IMG/VR virus record: IMGVR_UViG_3300023184_000588
Span: 1-21,390 of that record
Source of the DNA: a virus
DNA: 21,390 nucleotides
Strand: one strand, 5' to 3'
Positions 5,324-21,072 of this stretch are shown here, one piece after another; positions within the stretch are counted from its first letter, which is position 1, and every line of letters starts with the position of its first letter. Under the pieces are notes generated by a model. The model searched no databases and was not told the DNA's origin. It saw only the letters and a list, made by a program, of their open reading frames with translations. The translations under genes were made by a program, and so were the position numbers.

Positions 5324-7015
5324 ATGGCACCCCGAAATCCTCCTAAAATATCGGTTTACTTTATCGCAGGCCACGAGGCCCAGTTCATCGGCAGGGCGTT
5401 GGCCGCCTTTAAACCATTCTGCCAAGAGATAATCGTGGCACTCGCCCAGGGTAACCGGCCGGACGACGGCACCCGCGAGATCGCCGAGAAAGCAGGGGCC
5501 ACCGTCATCACCTACCACAACTCTGGCACGGCCGCAGATTGGCCCCACGTCGATAATTTTGCCAACGCACGTAACTGCGCATTGAATGCGTGCACTGGGG
5601 ACTACGCCGTCTGGTTCGATTGCGACGATTTACCCGCCGAAGACCTCGATAAATGCTTCACAAGGGCCGTGGAAGCGTTTGAAAAAGATTCAGCCCTCGG
5701 CATCTACGCAGGCGTCTACGCCGTTTTAAACGCCAAACTTTCCCCAGTAAGGGAAAGAATGGTAAAGCGCTTACCGGGTGGCGGCTGGTCCGGCACCTGG
5801 CATTACGCCGTCCATGAAGCACTCCTGCCCGTTGCTGGCTTTAAATCCATAGGGGAGCAGAACGTCTGGTGCGAACACCACTGCGGTGGGTACAAGCCGG
5901 GCAGCGCAGATCGTAATCTCCGCATCCTTGGCGATGAACTCAGTCAGGCGGGCAAATACGCCTACTACTATCAACAAGAACTATTCTTAGGGAACAAGCG
6001 TGACGAGAGCGGCGCCTGGTCACGCATCGCCGCCTATTGGCCCAAGCAGGAACCCACCCTGCAGTACGAAGCCATGTGCAACTACGCGGCCGCCCACCCC
6101 GATCGTGATACCCGCATGCGGCTTTACGGGAAGGCTCATCAGCTCCAGCCCGGCCGCCGTGAGGCGCTCTACTACATCGCTCGCGAGGAAGCATCTATCG
6201 GCAGGTGGGGCGCCGTTTACTACATGCTGAAGGCGGCCATGGTCCAGCCGGATCCGGGTGTCTCAATTTGGAACTGCCAGCGCTCCATTTATGACTTTGA
6301 GTGCATCGACCTCTACCTAGCGGCCGCCCGCATGACGGGCGATACGGCCGAAGTGGAAAAGATCACAACCTCCTGGCGTAAACAGTGCCCTGTTAAAATT
6401 TCTATTCTTCACGCCACCCGCAATCGCGCCCAGGCAGCCATTAACGCCCGCGTCCTGTGGATGAAAAAAGCATCTCACCCGCAGAACATAGAATGGATCT
6501 TCTCTTGCGATAACGACGATCCTACGGCCGCCGTCCTTAAACCGTGGAATCCTGTCATGGGCGAGGGGAGCTGCGTAGCCGCATGGAATAGGGCCGCCGA
6601 TAAGGCCCAAGGCGAGATCCTTATCCAAGCTAGCGACGATTGGGACCCACCCCTCTACTGGGACACCATCATTACCGAACGCCTGGGCGATCTGAGCCAG
6701 CCGAAGGTACTAGCGATCTCCGACGGGCACCGTACCGACGACCTCCTTTGCATGGCCATTTTAACAAAAGCTCGGCTTATCCAGCAGAGCTCACTTTTTG
6801 CGAATGAATACGACGCCTGCTCAGGCATCTTTAGCGATAACGAGTATAGCCACCGGGCAAAAAAAGACGGCGTCATAGTCGATGCTAAGGACGTCGTCTT
6901 CACCCACAATAACCCGCTTTTTACGGGTGCAGTGCAGGACGAGGAATTTAAAAAGCATAACGCCAAAGAAAACTACATCCTCGGCGAAAAGATATTTAAG
7001 GAGCGTAACCCGTGA
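5324..7015 (+). CDS. Double GT2 glycosyltransferase with TPR-like middle
   Basis: This 563-residue protein has two GT-A fold glycosyltransferase family 2 domains. The first (about 8-200) has ISVYFIAGHEAQFIGRAL, the FANARNCALNACTGDYAVWF segment and an acidic metal/sugar-nucleotide motif DCDD at 99-102, close to the 'FAxARN..GDW.L.LDADE' pattern of WaaE-like enzymes. Residues about 205-345 are helical, Tyr/Ala-rich and TPR-like. The second domain (about 357-560) begins KISILHATRNR and has ASDDWDPP with Asp438/439. The substrate cannot be read from sequence. It opens a three-gene cassette and overlaps the next gene by GTGA. It probably acts in the cytoplasm because no signal peptide is seen. One protein with two GT domains could add two sugars in succession or make a disaccharide; this is inference. 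Confidence 0.82.
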   Translation: MAPRNPPKISVYFIAGHEAQFIGRALAAFKPFCQEIIVALAQGNRPDDGTREIAEKAGATVITYHNSGTAADWPHVDNFANARNCALNACTGDYAVWFDCDDLPAEDLDKCFTRAVEAFEKDSALGIYAGVYAVLNAKLSPVRERMVKRLPGGGWSGTWHYAVHEALLPVAGFKSIGEQNVWCEHHCGGYKPGSADRNLRILGDELSQAGKYAYYYQQELFLGNKRDESGAWSRIAAYWPKQEPTLQYEAMCNYAAAHPDRDTRMRLYGKAHQLQPGRREALYYIAREEASIGRWGAVYYMLKAAMVQPDPGVSIWNCQRSIYDFECIDLYLAAARMTGDTAEVEKITTSWRKQCPVKISILHATRNRAQAAINARVLWMKKASHPQNIEWIFSCDNDDPTAAVLKPWNPVMGEGSCVAAWNRAADKAQGEILIQASDDWDPPLYWDTIITERLGDLSQPKVLAISDGHRTDDLLCMAILTKARLIQQSSLFANEYDACSGIFSDNEYSHRAKKDGVIVDAKDVVFTHNNPLFTGAVQDEEFKKHNAKENYILGEKIFKERNP

Positions 7016-8862
7016 AAGTATTTATTTATAACAACCTAATCGACAATCCCGTTATGCAAGAGGGCAACAAGACGCTGGCTCAGCGCGATAGGCTGGAGCC
7101 GCATCTAGCCTATTTAAACGACATCTACTATTTTCTAAAAAAGTTTGAAACGACTAATCCTGAGGAAGCCGATTGCTTCTTCGTTCCACTTTTTCTGGCT
7201 GGGATGCAATTCTCTAACCTTGATCCAGAAAAAATTATTAACGAACACTGCACGCACCTGACCCGAGGAAACCATATACTTGTCAGCACTGGAGATGTCG
7301 GTCAACGCAAAGAGTCGATTTACGAAATGACTCACGAAGCTAACCCAATTCGAGCTTACAACAAAAAGTGGCGGTGGATGGATGACCGATTTATTCTAAT
7401 CGCTCTCGAATCCTTGCCTACCCTACACAAACAAGACATCGCAATTTTACCTTATCAGACGAAAGAAACAGAAGCCTATGATTGCGAGCGAGACATCTTT
7501 GCCTCGTTTATTGGGACGATGACCCAACTGCACCTACCCGAAGATCATATCCGAGGAGGGAGGCTGGTTGAGTTGCAGGCCAAAGCAAAAGACATCCTTA
7601 TTGGTTGGCCACAAGAAGTAGCACACAGGATGGGGGAGGAGATTCACCCGCATAAACTAATGGCACGATCTGTATTTACTCTCTGCCCTGCGGGATATGG
7701 GCGGTGGTCGTTTCGGTTTGTTGAGGCGCTGCTCAACGGCTCAATCCCTATCCTTTTGTCGGATGACTATGTTCTGCCCTTTGCCGATAAGATTCAATGG
7801 GAAGATTACTGCATTACAGTCGAAGAAAAAGACCTTCTTAATGTGGAGGAGATTCTAAAATCCATACCGCAAGACCAAATTTTGCAGATGCAAGAGAAAA
7901 TCAAAAACTCAAAGCATCTATTTACAAAGGATTTTATTCTGTCCTGCATTGCAGAAAAACTGCCCCAAAAGTCATGCGCCGATATTGCTATCGGAAAGAT
8001 GAGAAGCCCAGAGGCGATGCACATTGTTTGCGTGGATGTAACCAACAAGTGCGATCTAGCCTGCTCTAACTGCACCCGGCTTTTGGCTAATCAAGAAACA
8101 AAATGGGAGATGAGCGTCGAGAACTTTCGACTAGCTCTTCAAAGCCTGAAGAACTACGGCGGCATAATCGCTATGATTGGAGGCAATCCATGCGTTCACA
8201 CAAAGTTTGCGGAGTTGTGCCAAGTCTTTCGGGAGGAGATACCCAACCAATTTCAGAGGGGTATATGGACAAACAACTATTTCAAACACCGAGAGGTGAT
8301 TGAGCAAACCTTTGGAGCGTTGAATCTTAACCCTCACAATATGGAGAGAGCCAACGAGAAGCTAAAAGACCTTCACGATGTAATGGTGAAACAAAAAGGA
8401 TTTCACGGCGGGTATTATGTGGGCAACAGTCATCACGCTCCCCTTCTAACAGCGGTTAAAGACCTATATCCAGAGCAGGAGATGTGGGACAGAATTAGCC
8501 GGTGTGATATAAACAAAGACTGGTCAGCATCCATTATTCAAAACAGGGGACAACTTAGGGCTTACTTCTGTGAAGTTGCGGCGTCCTTTGACTTGGCAAG
8601 AGGGGAAGATCACGGTCACCCAGTTGTCCTTGACTGGTGGAAAAAGCCAATCTCGGCTTTTTCCGATCAAGTGAAACATTTCTGCACCGGGTGTGGAGTT
8701 CCCGCAAGACTCCGAGGGAATATGGATAACGAGGAGATCGACACCTACACCAAGTCAAACGCCGACATTGCACAAAAGTCTTTGGCAAAGGGACGCAAGA
8801 TACAGCTGCTTGATGTAGAAAATAAACTAAATCATAAAGTGACGGAGTATTTTGCAGGGTGA
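7012..8862 (+). CDS. Exostosin-like (GT47) glycosyltransferase fused to a radical SAM domain
   Basis: This is a 616-residue fusion. Residues 1-310 match exostosin/GT47: EEADCFFVPLFLAG near 51-64, ARSVFTLCPAGYGRWSFRFVEAL (218-240, quoted in part: FTLCPAGYGRWS), then GSIPILLSDDYVLPF and IQWEDYCITV. Residues about 335-570 look like a radical SAM enzyme. The [4Fe-4S] motif CxxxCxxC is C347, C351, C354 (NKCDLACSNC), followed by MIGGNP at 388-393 in the place of the SAM-binding GGEP. Cysteines at 498, 520, 558 and 561 may bind an auxiliary cluster. GTG start 7012 overlaps the previous stop and has AAGGAG 8 bases upstream. The gene is visibly AT-richer, with AGA/AGG arginine codons, than flanking structural genes. 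The radical SAM part could modify a sugar or a peptide acceptor; the substrate is unknown. Confidence 0.85.
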   Translation: MKVFIYNNLIDNPVMQEGNKTLAQRDRLEPHLAYLNDIYYFLKKFETTNPEEADCFFVPLFLAGMQFSNLDPEKIINEHCTHLTRGNHILVSTGDVGQRKESIYEMTHEANPIRAYNKKWRWMDDRFILIALESLPTLHKQDIAILPYQTKETEAYDCERDIFASFIGTMTQLHLPEDHIRGGRLVELQAKAKDILIGWPQEVAHRMGEEIHPHKLMARSVFTLCPAGYGRWSFRFVEALLNGSIPILLSDDYVLPFADKIQWEDYCITVEEKDLLNVEEILKSIPQDQILQMQEKIKNSKHLFTKDFILSCIAEKLPQKSCADIAIGKMRSPEAMHIVCVDVTNKCDLACSNCTRLLANQETKWEMSVENFRLALQSLKNYGGIIAMIGGNPCVHTKFAELCQVFREEIPNQFQRGIWTNNYFKHREVIEQTFGALNLNPHNMERANEKLKDLHDVMVKQKGFHGGYYVGNSHHAPLLTAVKDLYPEQEMWDRISRCDINKDWSASIIQNRGQLRAYFCEVAASFDLARGEDHGHPVVLDWWKKPISAFSDQVKHFCTGCGVPARLRGNMDNEEIDTYTKSNADIAQKSLAKGRKIQLLDVENKLNHKVTEYFAG

Positions 8863-9518
8863 AAAAGTGTATCCGATACCAGCAACGCTTAGGCGATGTT
8901 CTGCGCTGCTTGCCTGCCTGCAAATATCTCGCCGACCAAGGCCACGAGGTAGTCTTAGATTGCTTTGATCAATATCACGGTGTCTTTGATTTGGTTACCT
9001 ACGTGCGCCCAGGCACTGCTGATGACATAATAGATTTAGAAATCTGGCCCAATCGTTACAACGCATTTCGGCAGTCTGGCTTATCGTGGATGGACTTTGT
9101 CTATCAGCACCCAGCCATTGCCGGAGCGGATCGCAAGATCGTACTGGATCGCCTGCCAGATGGGCCGCCACCCGGACTGCCTGATCATTACAACCTGCTG
9201 GCGCCGATGGGTATCAGCCAATCGTGGAACTACCCGACGCTAGATATTCTACAGAAAGCTACCGAGCTGATGGGCGACTTTATCATTATGTGCGAAAAGA
9301 AATACTACTTTCACAACCGACACTGGACGGCGGCATCGGTAGTCGAAATGGCGCAAGCTATCAAGCACGCCAGCACCTTCATGGCGATAAACTCAGCCCC
9401 AGCCATACTTGCCTCAGCTCTACGCCAAGATCGCCCAACCTTCTTCCTTCCGCAAAAAGAACAGTGGGCACAAGACAACATCGCGCCGTGGCCTGGGCGC
9501 GTTGACGTGGAGCTATAA
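8859..9518 (+). CDS. Short GT9/heptosyltransferase-like glycosyltransferase
   Basis: This 219-residue protein starts at GTG 8859, overlapping the preceding stop by GTGA. The N terminus (RLGDVLRCLPACKYLADQGHEV) matches the 'lGDvl...P....L...' opening of GT9 heptosyltransferases, and MAINSAPAILASALRQDRPTFF near the C terminus resembles the sugar-nucleotide loop 'sGp.HlA.al..P.v.l'. It is about 120 residues shorter than typical GT9 enzymes, so the two Rossmann halves are compact or part is missing. It closes the sugar cassette; a tail gene begins four bases after its stop. The C-terminal codons contain the TTGACG that lies 20 bases before the next start. Activity and acceptor are unknown. Confidence 0.65.
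   Translation: MKKCIRYQQRLGDVLRCLPACKYLADQGHEVVLDCFDQYHGVFDLVTYVRPGTADDIIDLEIWPNRYNAFRQSGLSWMDFVYQHPAIAGADRKIVLDRLPDGPPPGLPDHYNLLAPMGISQSWNYPTLDILQKATELMGDFIIMCEKKYYFHNRHWTAASVVEMAQAIKHASTFMAINSAPAILASALRQDRPTFFLPQKEQWAQDNIAPWPGRVDVEL
9502..9507 (+). promoter_or_regulatory. TTGACG variant of the start-linked motif, tail terminator gene
   Basis: TTGACG inside the last codons of the GT9-like gene lies exactly 20 bases before ATG 9522. This is the only member of the set that deviates from TTGACA, by one base. Confidence 0.4.
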
Positions 9519-14269: not shown

Positions 14270-14671
14270 ATGGCAATCGAACCAAGACTAAAACCCCTTG
14301 TCGGCGCGTCTCGCCTAGCGATAGGATTTTTTAATAGCATTATCAATCGGATTGAGTGCACCAAACCCCTCGCCGGTGACTTCATTACCATCAAAGAAGA
14401 AGATAACGGATATAGAATTAATTTTACTGGATTCAATATAGGGGTAGGGGAGGGAACCGCCGCCGCGACCGGCGCTACCGGCCCTAGCGGAGTTACTGGA
14501 CCAAAAGGAGACAAAGGAGACCAAGGAGACCCAGGATCTAATGGCGCTACTGGTCCTACTGGAGCTACTGGGCCAGGGGCAACAACATATGGCCACATCA
14601 TACTTAACGTCTGCTCAAACGGAAATCCTGCAACCATTAGCCTGATGCGGGGCCCAAACACTGTAACTTGA
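14270..14671 (+). CDS. Collagen-like phage fibre protein
   Basis: This protein has 133 residues. An N-terminal globular part (1-66) probably docks to the tail; ALA-rich residues lead into twelve Gly-X-Y triplets (68-103), with GPK, GDK, GDQ and GDP units typical of phage collagen-like stalks; a short C-terminal cap ([19 protein letters not shown]) follows. Such proteins form trimeric stalks in tail fibres. The start lacks a strong ribosome binding site (AACGGA lies 9-14 bases upstream). It lies between a distal tail protein and other fibre-like genes. Confidence 0.75.
14471..14578 (+). repeat. Twelve Gly-X-Y (collagen) codon repeats
   Basis: Tandem nine-base units encode [33 protein letters not shown] and G-P-G. 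Unit sequences such as GGAGAC and GGCGCTAC recur, so replication slippage could change stalk length. Confidence 0.75.
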
Positions 14672-19259: not shown

Positions 19260-19470
19260 TGCGCTCTCCTCCTGTGCGACTCTCCCGCGCACAGAAGGCC
19301 CGCCACCGACGCCGGACACGATCAGCGATCTCATCATGCGGTGGGACGCCATTGAGCGGCGCGTCGGTCATTGTAATAAAGAATACCGGGATCAGTACGT
19401 CGCGGCGCTTAAGGCGCTTAGTGACAGCTTGGCGGAAACTGCAAAATCCAACGCCAGGGAAGGACGATAG
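19216..19470 (+). CDS. Small lipoprotein, o-spanin (Rz1)-like candidate
   Basis: This 84-residue protein is read from GTG 19216 with AAAGAGG just upstream. A signal peptide (GGLTALLVLSALSSC) ends in lipobox L-S-S-C with Cys20 as the lipidation site; a proline-rich patch (EGPPPTPD) follows, then two helices (LIMRWDAIERRVGHCNKEYR; YVAALKALSDSLAETA). A lipobox plus a proline patch next to an endolysin gene is the usual look of outer-membrane spanins, although this one is longer than Rz1. It ends in a TAGTG overlap with the endolysin. Confidence 0.6.
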   Translation: MILIRGGLTALLVLSALSSCATLPRTEGPPPTPDTISDLIMRWDAIERRVGHCNKEYRDQYVAALKALSDSLAETAKSNAREGR

Positions 19471-19976
19471 TGACCACCCTAGCCGAGAGTAACGCCCGCA
19501 CCCTGCGGGCGATTGAAAGTCTTGCTCCCGCCTTTCAGCGTCAGGTGAGGGGATGGGTGACTGAGATGGTTAACAGCAAAATCCCGCCACTGATCTACTG
19601 CGGCCGCCGGACGATGGAGGAGCAAGCGGCACTTTATGCGATCGGGCGATCCGCCCCTGGTCGAATTGTGACCAAGGCCAGAGCAGGGGAGAGCTACCAC
19701 AACTACGGCCTAGCCTTTGATTGGGTGCCGTTAAAGCCAGCGCCAAAGGATCCTACGATGCTCGTAGTCGACTGGGACGACGAGACCGCGTTCCGTATCG
19801 GCGAACACGTCGGCGGCAGTTTTCAGTTAAATGGAATTAGTTGGGAGGCAGGCCATCTCCAGTCGAGCCAGTACGCAAGCTGGCGTGACATTCCACGCAA
19901 GGATGTGGAACAACCCACCCAGCAAATTGTTGCAAAACCTGTCACCACCCGTCGCGTAAAAATGAGGCGTCCATGA
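19470..19976 (+). CDS. M15 family peptidase, endolysin
   Basis: The enzyme has 168 residues and cleaves peptidoglycan peptide bridges at the end of infection. The zinc site of M15 peptidases is complete: SYHNYGLAFD (75-84), fitting SxHxxGxAxD with His77 and Asp84, then E126 and His129 in WEAGHLQ. This arrangement matches T5 endolysin/Ply500-type L-alanyl-D-glutamate (or D-Ala-D-Ala) peptidases. The final ~25 residues form a basic tail (KPVTTRRVKMRRP), which may help reach the outer membrane. There is no signal peptide, so release needs a holin from the adjacent small membrane genes. The start is GTG in a TAGTG overlap. Confidence 0.9.
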   Translation: MTTLAESNARTLRAIESLAPAFQRQVRGWVTEMVNSKIPPLIYCGRRTMEEQAALYAIGRSAPGRIVTKARAGESYHNYGLAFDWVPLKPAPKDPTMLVVDWDDETAFRIGEHVGGSFQLNGISWEAGHLQSSQYASWRDIPRKDVEQPTQQIVAKPVTTRRVKMRRP

Positions 19977-20317
19977 CCGAATCGCCTGCCATTCATAGCC
20001 CTATGAGCGAGGAACACGAAAAGCACTTAGCCGGGATCCTTGTCGATCTAACGAGGGACGTGTCCAAAAAATATCGCAAGGGGCAGAAGGAGCACGGTGG
20101 CGCCCTGTGGCGTAGGCCCGTGTGGAAGGATGCATGGGATGAAATTTTGGACCTCTGTGTTTATCAACATACCCTACGCCTCCAGCTTTCCGTAATCGCC
20201 GAGCTCGCCCTGCAGGGCGCTGCAGATTCGTCGGTCGCTGCCTCACAAAGCAGAGAAAATTGTCGCCAGATCCTAGCCGTCCTTCAAGGCTTTCCATCGG
20301 CCCAAGACAAAAAGTGA
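19973..20317 (+). CDS. EHGG-motif helical phage protein (possible MazG-like)
   Basis: The protein has 114 residues; the ATG overlaps the endolysin stop as ATGA and has GAGG five bases upstream. The core SKKYRKGQKEHGGALWRRPV then AWDEILDLCVYQHTL shows the 'KYrkGq.EHGG.L......a..EilDl.vY' pattern seen in many phage proteins thought to be distant all-helical NTP pyrophosphohydrolases of the MazG/dUTPase superfamily. The acidic residues in EILDL would be the metal ligands. The substrate is unknown and the family link is from memory of motifs. Confidence 0.5.
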   Translation: MTESPAIHSPMSEEHEKHLAGILVDLTRDVSKKYRKGQKEHGGALWRRPVWKDAWDEILDLCVYQHTLRLQLSVIAELALQGAADSSVAASQSRENCRQILAVLQGFPSAQDKK

Positions 20318-21072
20318 AAGTAATCAGAAAGTGGAAGCGCTGGCTGGCAGTGTCCTGCTCCCACGGCCACCTCGCTAACCCGGCTGCCTGTGCCGCCGCT
20401 TTAGAGATGAAGCGCAGGTGGATCCGCCCAAACAGCGGAGATCAAGTCCTGCATTTAGGTGATTTTCTTGACCTATCTTCCCTAATGGGCTCGGCCAGAA
20501 AAGATCCTGATAATCCCGAGCGATCAATCTCCATACGTGAGGACTTCGACGCTGGGCTAAATTTCGTCCGCCAGCTTGCCCCAAACTATCTTTATGAGGG
20601 GAACCATGAACACCGTCTAACCGCGCTACAAACCTCGCCTAGCGCCATTGTGGCTCACTGCTGCATGTCCGCTAAGTCGGAGATTTACAACCTGTGCAAA
20701 GATCTAAAGGCGGAGTGGGTGCCGTACGATATTGAAAAGGGGTGGCGGGATCTGGGTGGCACTGCGTTCGGCCACGGCTTTATGTTTTCAGAATCCAGCG
20801 CAGTGCGTGATCACGTAGAGATGACCCGCAAACCAGTAGTCATCGGCCATCTACATAGGATCGATCGATCTTCCGGCCGCAGTTTTGGTGCCCCGGTGGG
20901 ATGGACGATCGGATGCTTGGCGGATATCGGATCTATGCACTACGCCCGGCGCCAGAGATCCGTGACTAGGTGGCAACACGGCGTCGCCTGGGGCGAGTAC
21001 GTAGACGGAGGGCAGGGGTGCACCGTAAACGTGTTGTCGCCTGTGGAGGGCCAATGGCGATACCCGATTTAA
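20314..21072 (+). CDS. Calcineurin-like metallophosphoesterase with atypical first motif
   Basis: The protein has 252 residues from GTG 20314 in a GTGA overlap; upstream in-frame codons lie inside the previous gene. Metallophosphoesterase motifs appear in order: SCSHGH (14-19), GDFLD (49-53), GNHEHR (96-101), GHGF (153-156) and GHLHR (178-182). The first motif should be D-x-H; here Asp is replaced by Cys15 while His17 is kept. The other ligands are intact, so the enzyme may still bind metals, or Cys may serve as ligand. Substrate unknown; phage homologues act on phosphodiesters, phosphoproteins or nucleic-acid ends. It sits in a late region, not beside DNA-replication genes. Confidence 0.8.
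   Translation: MKVIRKWKRWLAVSCSHGHLANPAACAAALEMKRRWIRPNSGDQVLHLGDFLDLSSLMGSARKDPDNPERSISIREDFDAGLNFVRQLAPNYLYEGNHEHRLTALQTSPSAIVAHCCMSAKSEIYNLCKDLKAEWVPYDIEKGWRDLGGTAFGHGFMFSESSAVRDHVEMTRKPVVIGHLHRIDRSSGRSFGAPVGWTIGCLADIGSMHYARRQRSVTRWQHGVAWGEYVDGGQGCTVNVLSPVEGQWRYPI

Follow-up and report, generated by a model that had tools for sequence, protein, structure and literature searches.

A virus represented by a 21,390-base IMG/VR record, which is the whole stretch of DNA analysed here and is referred to as the window, encodes a single protein that joins a GT47 exostosin domain to a twitch-type radical SAM (rSAM) domain, and the gene for this protein is a member of a three-gene glycan cassette (Table 1). 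The initial annotation had placed these two domains in one 616-residue phage protein, with coordinates, frame and length that are correct; both domains are recovered by profile and by fold, and the pair occurs in 11 viral contigs counting the window. The rSAM half belongs to a family without a name, which is present in 66 viral contigs and in bacteria. We propose that the viruses probably assemble an unusual sugar, either on the virion or on the surface of the host, and modify it chemically afterwards. The fusion gene overlaps both of its neighbours by 4 nt each, and the record also encodes portal, major head and tape-measure proteins.

Table 1. Cassette genes, domains and predicted cluster sites in the window
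Feature	Position	Strand	Details
Cassette gene 1: GT2 glycosyltransferase domain and C-terminal half	5324..7015	+	Pfam Glycos_transf_2 E=1.4e-9
GT47::radical SAM fusion gene	7012..8862	+	616 aa, GTG start, one continuous intact ORF
Exostosin GT47 (GT-B) domain	7012..7980	+	Residues 1-323; Pfam PF03016; Foldseek EXT1/EXT2
Twitch-type radical SAM domain	7981..8859	+	Residues 324-616; standalone gene in most other phages
C347-x3-C351-x2-C354 (CDLACSNC), predicted [4Fe-4S]/SAM cluster motif	8050..8073	+	Invariant in 63/63 relatives
C498, C520, C558, C561, predicted auxiliary (twitch) cluster ligands around a beta-hairpin	8503..8694	+	Conserved; strands from the model
Cassette gene 3: heptosyltransferase (GT9)-like, weak assignment	8859..9518	+	NCBIfam heptosyltransferase III, E=0.046 only

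The N-terminal half belongs to GT47 by a Pfam Exostosin_GT47 (PF03016) match above its cut-off (residues 31-285, E=3.4e-30, 105.8 bits versus 33.4) and by a predicted GT-B fold. The AF2 model of the whole protein (pLDDT 83, pTM 0.68), compared with the PDB using Foldseek, retrieves EXT2 and EXT1 at the top (E about 1e-10 to 1e-9) and then EXTL3, with SpeY and BtrN ranking after these; residues 95-115 of the GT47 part are modelled with low confidence. The C-terminal block of the domain (CPAGYG...SFRFxEAL...P...SDDY) is intact in 11/11 fused proteins. EXT1, EXT2 and EXTL3 have the PF03016 domain, the GT-B fold and this conserved block in common with the fusion protein, but EXT proteins combine GT47 with GT64 and not with an rSAM domain. 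Scanning with the GT47 half of the clade as query recovered fused copies only, and close relatives of this domain outside the fusion were not seen. Synechococcus phage S-SKS1 (SWZG_00052) and cyanophage-like contigs encode more distant exostosins, about 31% identical; these are single-domain proteins, whereas the fusion protein adds the rSAM domain. A distant cyanophage match, SynMITS9220M01 (E=6e-4), was considered and is not an orthologue.

The C-terminal half carries the CxxxCxxC motif on a partial TIM barrel whose predicted fold matches rSAM structures, which places it in the radical SAM superfamily. Its match to Pfam Radical_SAM (PF04055; residues 343-415, E=6e-4) reaches 20.4 bits against a gathering cut-off of 29.5, and relatives score up to 27.5 bits. 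This shortfall is a matter of detection threshold and is outweighed by the motif, the fold and the NCBIfam matches: 26 NCBIfam models, nearly all of them rSAM, match the same stretch, although all score far below their own cut-offs. The best of these, tetraether lipid synthase (E=3e-6), was rejected as an assignment, as only the rSAM core is shared and the score is far below the 450-bit cut-off. Modelled alone, the domain reaches pLDDT 86 and pTM 0.86, and its closest PDB structures are SpeY (E=6.5e-8, TM 0.51-0.53), then AbmM and BtrN (TM 0.56 by target length), with the peptide enzymes SuiB and SkfB among the weaker matches. Structure prediction, which the initial annotation had put forward as a check, returned both a GT-B fold and an rSAM barrel, matching EXT1/EXT2 and SpeY and BtrN, respectively.

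Conservation across 63 rSAM relatives bears out the seven cysteines that had been named from the single sequence and adds others that had been missed. GGNP is invariant alongside C347, C351 and C354. At the proposed second cluster site, C498, C558 and C561 are present in 63/63 and C520 in 62/63, with phenylalanine at the latter position in one relative (L063:132-1040). The overlooked residues are C340 and C403, invariant in all 63 and needed for neither predicted cluster, and C394, which is present in 63/63 of the alignment set and is valine (within GGNPC) in L068 and L099. In the model, a beta-hairpin (strands 506-511 and 514-518) lies between C498 and C520, and the long helix that comes next ends with C558xxC561. 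This order of cysteine, hairpin, cysteine, helices and CxxC is the twitch layout, with a single auxiliary cluster site, as described in PMC6231123, where BtrN contributes four cysteines. A SPASM domain was rejected, as its seven-cysteine motif is not present and no conserved cysteines follow C561. Both iron-sulfur clusters of the fusion protein are thus predictions from sequence and model.

SpeY and BtrN are twitch rSAM dehydrogenases of the spectinomycin and butirosin aminoglycoside clusters, and they are the nearest solved folds to our family (BtrN TM 0.56-0.58 by target length). They share with it the CxxxCxxC motif and one auxiliary site, with two cysteines around a beta-hairpin and a terminal CxxC. 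Unlike them, the phage family has the GGNP motif and extra invariant cysteines, lies beside or is fused to glycan enzymes in phages, and has no detectable sequence similarity to either: a search of the family profile against all PDB sequences lists neither up to E=10. The rSAM proteins of uncultured Caudovirales and Campylobacter phages in UniProt/BFVD are also phage-encoded, but they belong to a different family (best TM about 0.48, 12-14% identity) in which no glycosyltransferase fusion was seen.

To ask how widely the architecture occurs, IMG/VR was scanned with the rSAM part, yielding 66 loci in viral contigs. The search for other proteins with the same domain pair, another proposal of the initial annotation, found ten other contigs (L002, L009-L016 and L069) from eight other metagenomes; nine of these carry complete genes, and the L069 copy is truncated in its rSAM half by the contig end. 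The fusion proteins are 616-620 aa long, and the fused copies are 58-81% identical to the window protein in the GT47 part and 80-97% in the rSAM part, a spread showing that the fusion has had time to diverge. An assembly chimera is ruled out because these ten contigs share the junction seen in the window. The ten complete fusions form a single clade with 100/100 support, which is consistent with one fusion event. In both halves dN/dS is well below 1 (0.126/1.29 and 0.019/0.66 for the window versus L002), indicating that both are under purifying selection and ruling out a degenerate half. A separate rSAM protein made from an internal start was also rejected, as the position of the standalone start lacks a start codon in 11/11 fused genes; the next in-frame ATG is M330. 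Along window positions 7000-9000, nucleotide identity to L002 in 250-base steps goes from 0.93 to 0.68, 0.94 and 0.97, and these jumps between what are the two closest cassettes suggest recombination within the fusion gene and its neighbour.

The cassette is as constant as the fusion itself. The GT2 gene lies upstream in 11/11 contigs and the GT9-like gene downstream in 10/10 contigs that continue past the fusion. Throughout the fused clade, which includes two different head protein families, the cassette is flanked by the gene for the major head protein on one side and by downstream late genes on the other; the initial annotation had rightly placed the gene among virion genes, and in the window these are head and tail genes. 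The C-terminal half of the GT2 protein (6350-7015) has no Pfam or NCBIfam match; by eye it appears GT2-like (DDWDPP). In six contigs (L009, L010, L012, L013, L015 and L016) a TylF-like methyltransferase gene follows the GT2 gene and directly precedes the fusion, and it is absent in the window and L002. Elsewhere in the window, a small tail-region protein (14270-14671) contains G-x-y repeats resembling collagen (a Pfam Collagen match at E=8.9e-6, under the cut-off), and the window end carries, by weak Pfam matches, a VanY/M15-like peptidase that may be an endolysin (19470-19976) and a metallophosphoesterase-like gene (20260-21072).

In most other contigs the rSAM is encoded on its own, as a protein of about 300 aa, in a recurrent glycan setting. 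A GT2 gene of one family is near it in 48/66 loci, adjoining or overlapping it in most phages, and among 46 neighbouring pairs counted, 33 overlap by 4 nt; profile comparison found no relation between this GT2 and the cassette GT2. NAD-epimerase/dehydratase genes are found in 22/66 loci and TylF/Methyltransf_24 methyltransferases in 13/66. The terminase large subunit is often the gene following the rSAM. These phages are not of one lineage, since they differ in head proteins (PHROG 283 in the window, 1005 in L010, 9953 in L005) and in portal (SU10-type in L046). A tblastn search with a standalone member against 50,697 records of isolated phages gave no match, and culture-based work would therefore miss the family.

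The strongest functional clue is given by bacterial relatives. A scan of bacterial genomes using a 41-row alignment gave ten loci, two of them distant, where a first scan with a poorer alignment had given none, and six of the proteins have other architectures. In three, the rSAM is followed by a GT2 domain (L098 from an Acetobacteraceae MAG, L101 and L102 from Pseudomonadota MAGs), which Pfam identifies in L098 (E=2.8e-27) and L102 (E=3.4e-33) and which L101 resembles by sequence. In the other three (L095 from a Caenispirillum MAG, L096 and L097) it is followed by an FkbM-like methyltransferase (TIGR01444, E=2e-5 to 1.3e-7, below cut-off). The GT47, GT2 and FkbM-like fusions form three separate clades. 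L095 lies near two GT25-like genes, and a Pelagibacteraceae single cell (L100) has a free rSAM near GT61, FkbM-like and dTDP-sugar-like genes. The family is rare in the class of the Caenispirillum MAG, being found in 2/385 genomes of a class-wide search. Since the rSAM is joined to three different glycan enzymes, we infer that its substrate lies in a glycan pathway. The link to sugar chemistry that the initial annotation had suggested thus appears likely, though that reading was only partly supported as a whole, having missed the wider family, the GT2 and FkbM-like fusions and the three-gene cassette.

We therefore propose a glycan-assembly enzyme that would perform two steps, in either order, on one chain. 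The N-terminal GT47 domain would take a sugar from a nucleotide sugar and transfer it. The C-terminal domain would bind a [4Fe-4S] cluster through C347, C351 and C354 together with SAM, generating a 5'-deoxyadenosyl radical; the hydrogen atom that this radical abstracts would sit on a carbinol carbon, either in the same glycan or in the acceptor or precursor of that glycan. The second electron would then pass to the auxiliary cluster (C498/C520/C558/C561) to give a keto-sugar, as proposed for carbinol oxidation by BtrN, in which four cysteines ligate the auxiliary cluster (PMC9012708). The adjacent GT2 and GT9-like proteins, and in relatives the TylF-like methyltransferase, would be partners. 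That the rSAM chemistry acts on a glycan pathway is a reading we hold with reasonable confidence; dehydrogenation as the reaction is put forward tentatively, at somewhat less than an even chance. Several observations weigh against this picture: the structural agreement with SpeY and BtrN is moderate (TM-scores 0.5-0.58) and sequence similarity to them undetectable, an epimerase could draw hydrogen from the spare cysteines C340 and C403, C520 is missing in L063, the rSAM match falls short of the Pfam gathering cut-off and the GT9 assignment is weak.

The function of SPASM/twitch enzymes is hard to predict (PMC6231123), and the main chemical rival to dehydrogenation is epimerisation, because NeoN needs a donor cysteine (Cys249; PMC10991966) and our family has spare invariant cysteines. 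A thiol of C340, C403 or C394 would return hydrogen from the opposite face of the sugar with no net oxidation. In NeoN and HygY, both rSAM epimerases acting on a sugar carbinol, one cysteine separates epimerase from dehydrogenase, and neither enzyme is among the structural matches listed for the fusion protein; a title cited in PMC10991966 describes HygY as a twitch epimerase with latent dehydrogenase activity after a one-cysteine mutation. Yet the closest folds found are dehydrogenases, C340 and C403 are both located in the first half of the barrel, and conservation of C394 is not strict. We regard epimerisation as unlikely, if worth keeping in view. Still less probable, in our estimate, is a protein or peptide substrate for the rSAM, with a RiPP-like modification or one on a side chain of a virion protein, at a site that the GT47 domain then glycosylates. 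Many SPASM/twitch enzymes do have peptide substrates (PMC9012708), SuiB and SkfB appear among the weaker fold matches and the gene lies among virion genes. These peptide maturases nevertheless rank under SpeY and BtrN, neither a precursor-peptide gene nor a peptide-recognition domain was noticed (no dedicated model was used), and the recurrence of glycan partners, with pairing or fusion to glycosyltransferases, epimerases and methyltransferases across unrelated genomes, makes peptide modification less likely. Among the outcomes that the initial annotation had listed, the fold and cysteine layout favour a reaction at a sugar carbinol, oxidation or else epimerisation, over modification of a peptide.

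Where the glycan resides, and whether the two activities are coupled, are separate matters. The position of the cassette among head and tail genes favours a glycan on the virion, and we give this about an even chance. The alternative, that the cassette alters LPS or capsule of the host, as it might to prevent superinfection, is possible but somewhat doubtful: phage glycosyltransferases are often proposed to change the host O-antigen (PMC7029224) and some bacterial relatives adjoin GT25 (LPS-type), GT61 or dTDP-sugar-like genes, but unfused copies are mostly beside terminase or portal genes. The late-cluster position, kept in two head-protein lineages, thus leans toward the virion, and the bacterial neighbours lean toward surface polysaccharides. 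The fusion could also be incidental, joining two enzymes for co-expression with their chemistry uncoupled, as might be read from the unfused state of the gene in most relatives and from the lower pTM of the whole protein than of the rSAM domain alone. We think this improbable, as the adjoining glycosyltransferase genes in unfused phages and the three fusions to glycan enzymes suggest a common pathway. The most specific form of our proposal, in which a bifunctional enzyme glycosylates a virion protein and oxidises the attached sugar in place to a keto-sugar that is reactive or open to further tailoring, we consider quite unlikely; if true, radical chemistry would be used in virion glycosylation.

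Sugar-acting radical SAM enzymes are already known, as are phage GT47 proteins and glycan cassettes carried by phages. The combination of GT47 with rSAM in one chain is new and the rSAM subfamily has no name; neither is reported in the part of the open-access literature that we searched. Three fusions and operon position bind this family to glycan building, and it spans phages of several structural lineages as well as bacteria. The fused form offers a single assayable protein, and the bacterial versions offer cellular test material. If the proposed chemistry is right, these phages would carry genes for tailoring glycans by radical chemistry and could thereby make unusual virion or host sugars, with a bearing on host recognition and superinfection.
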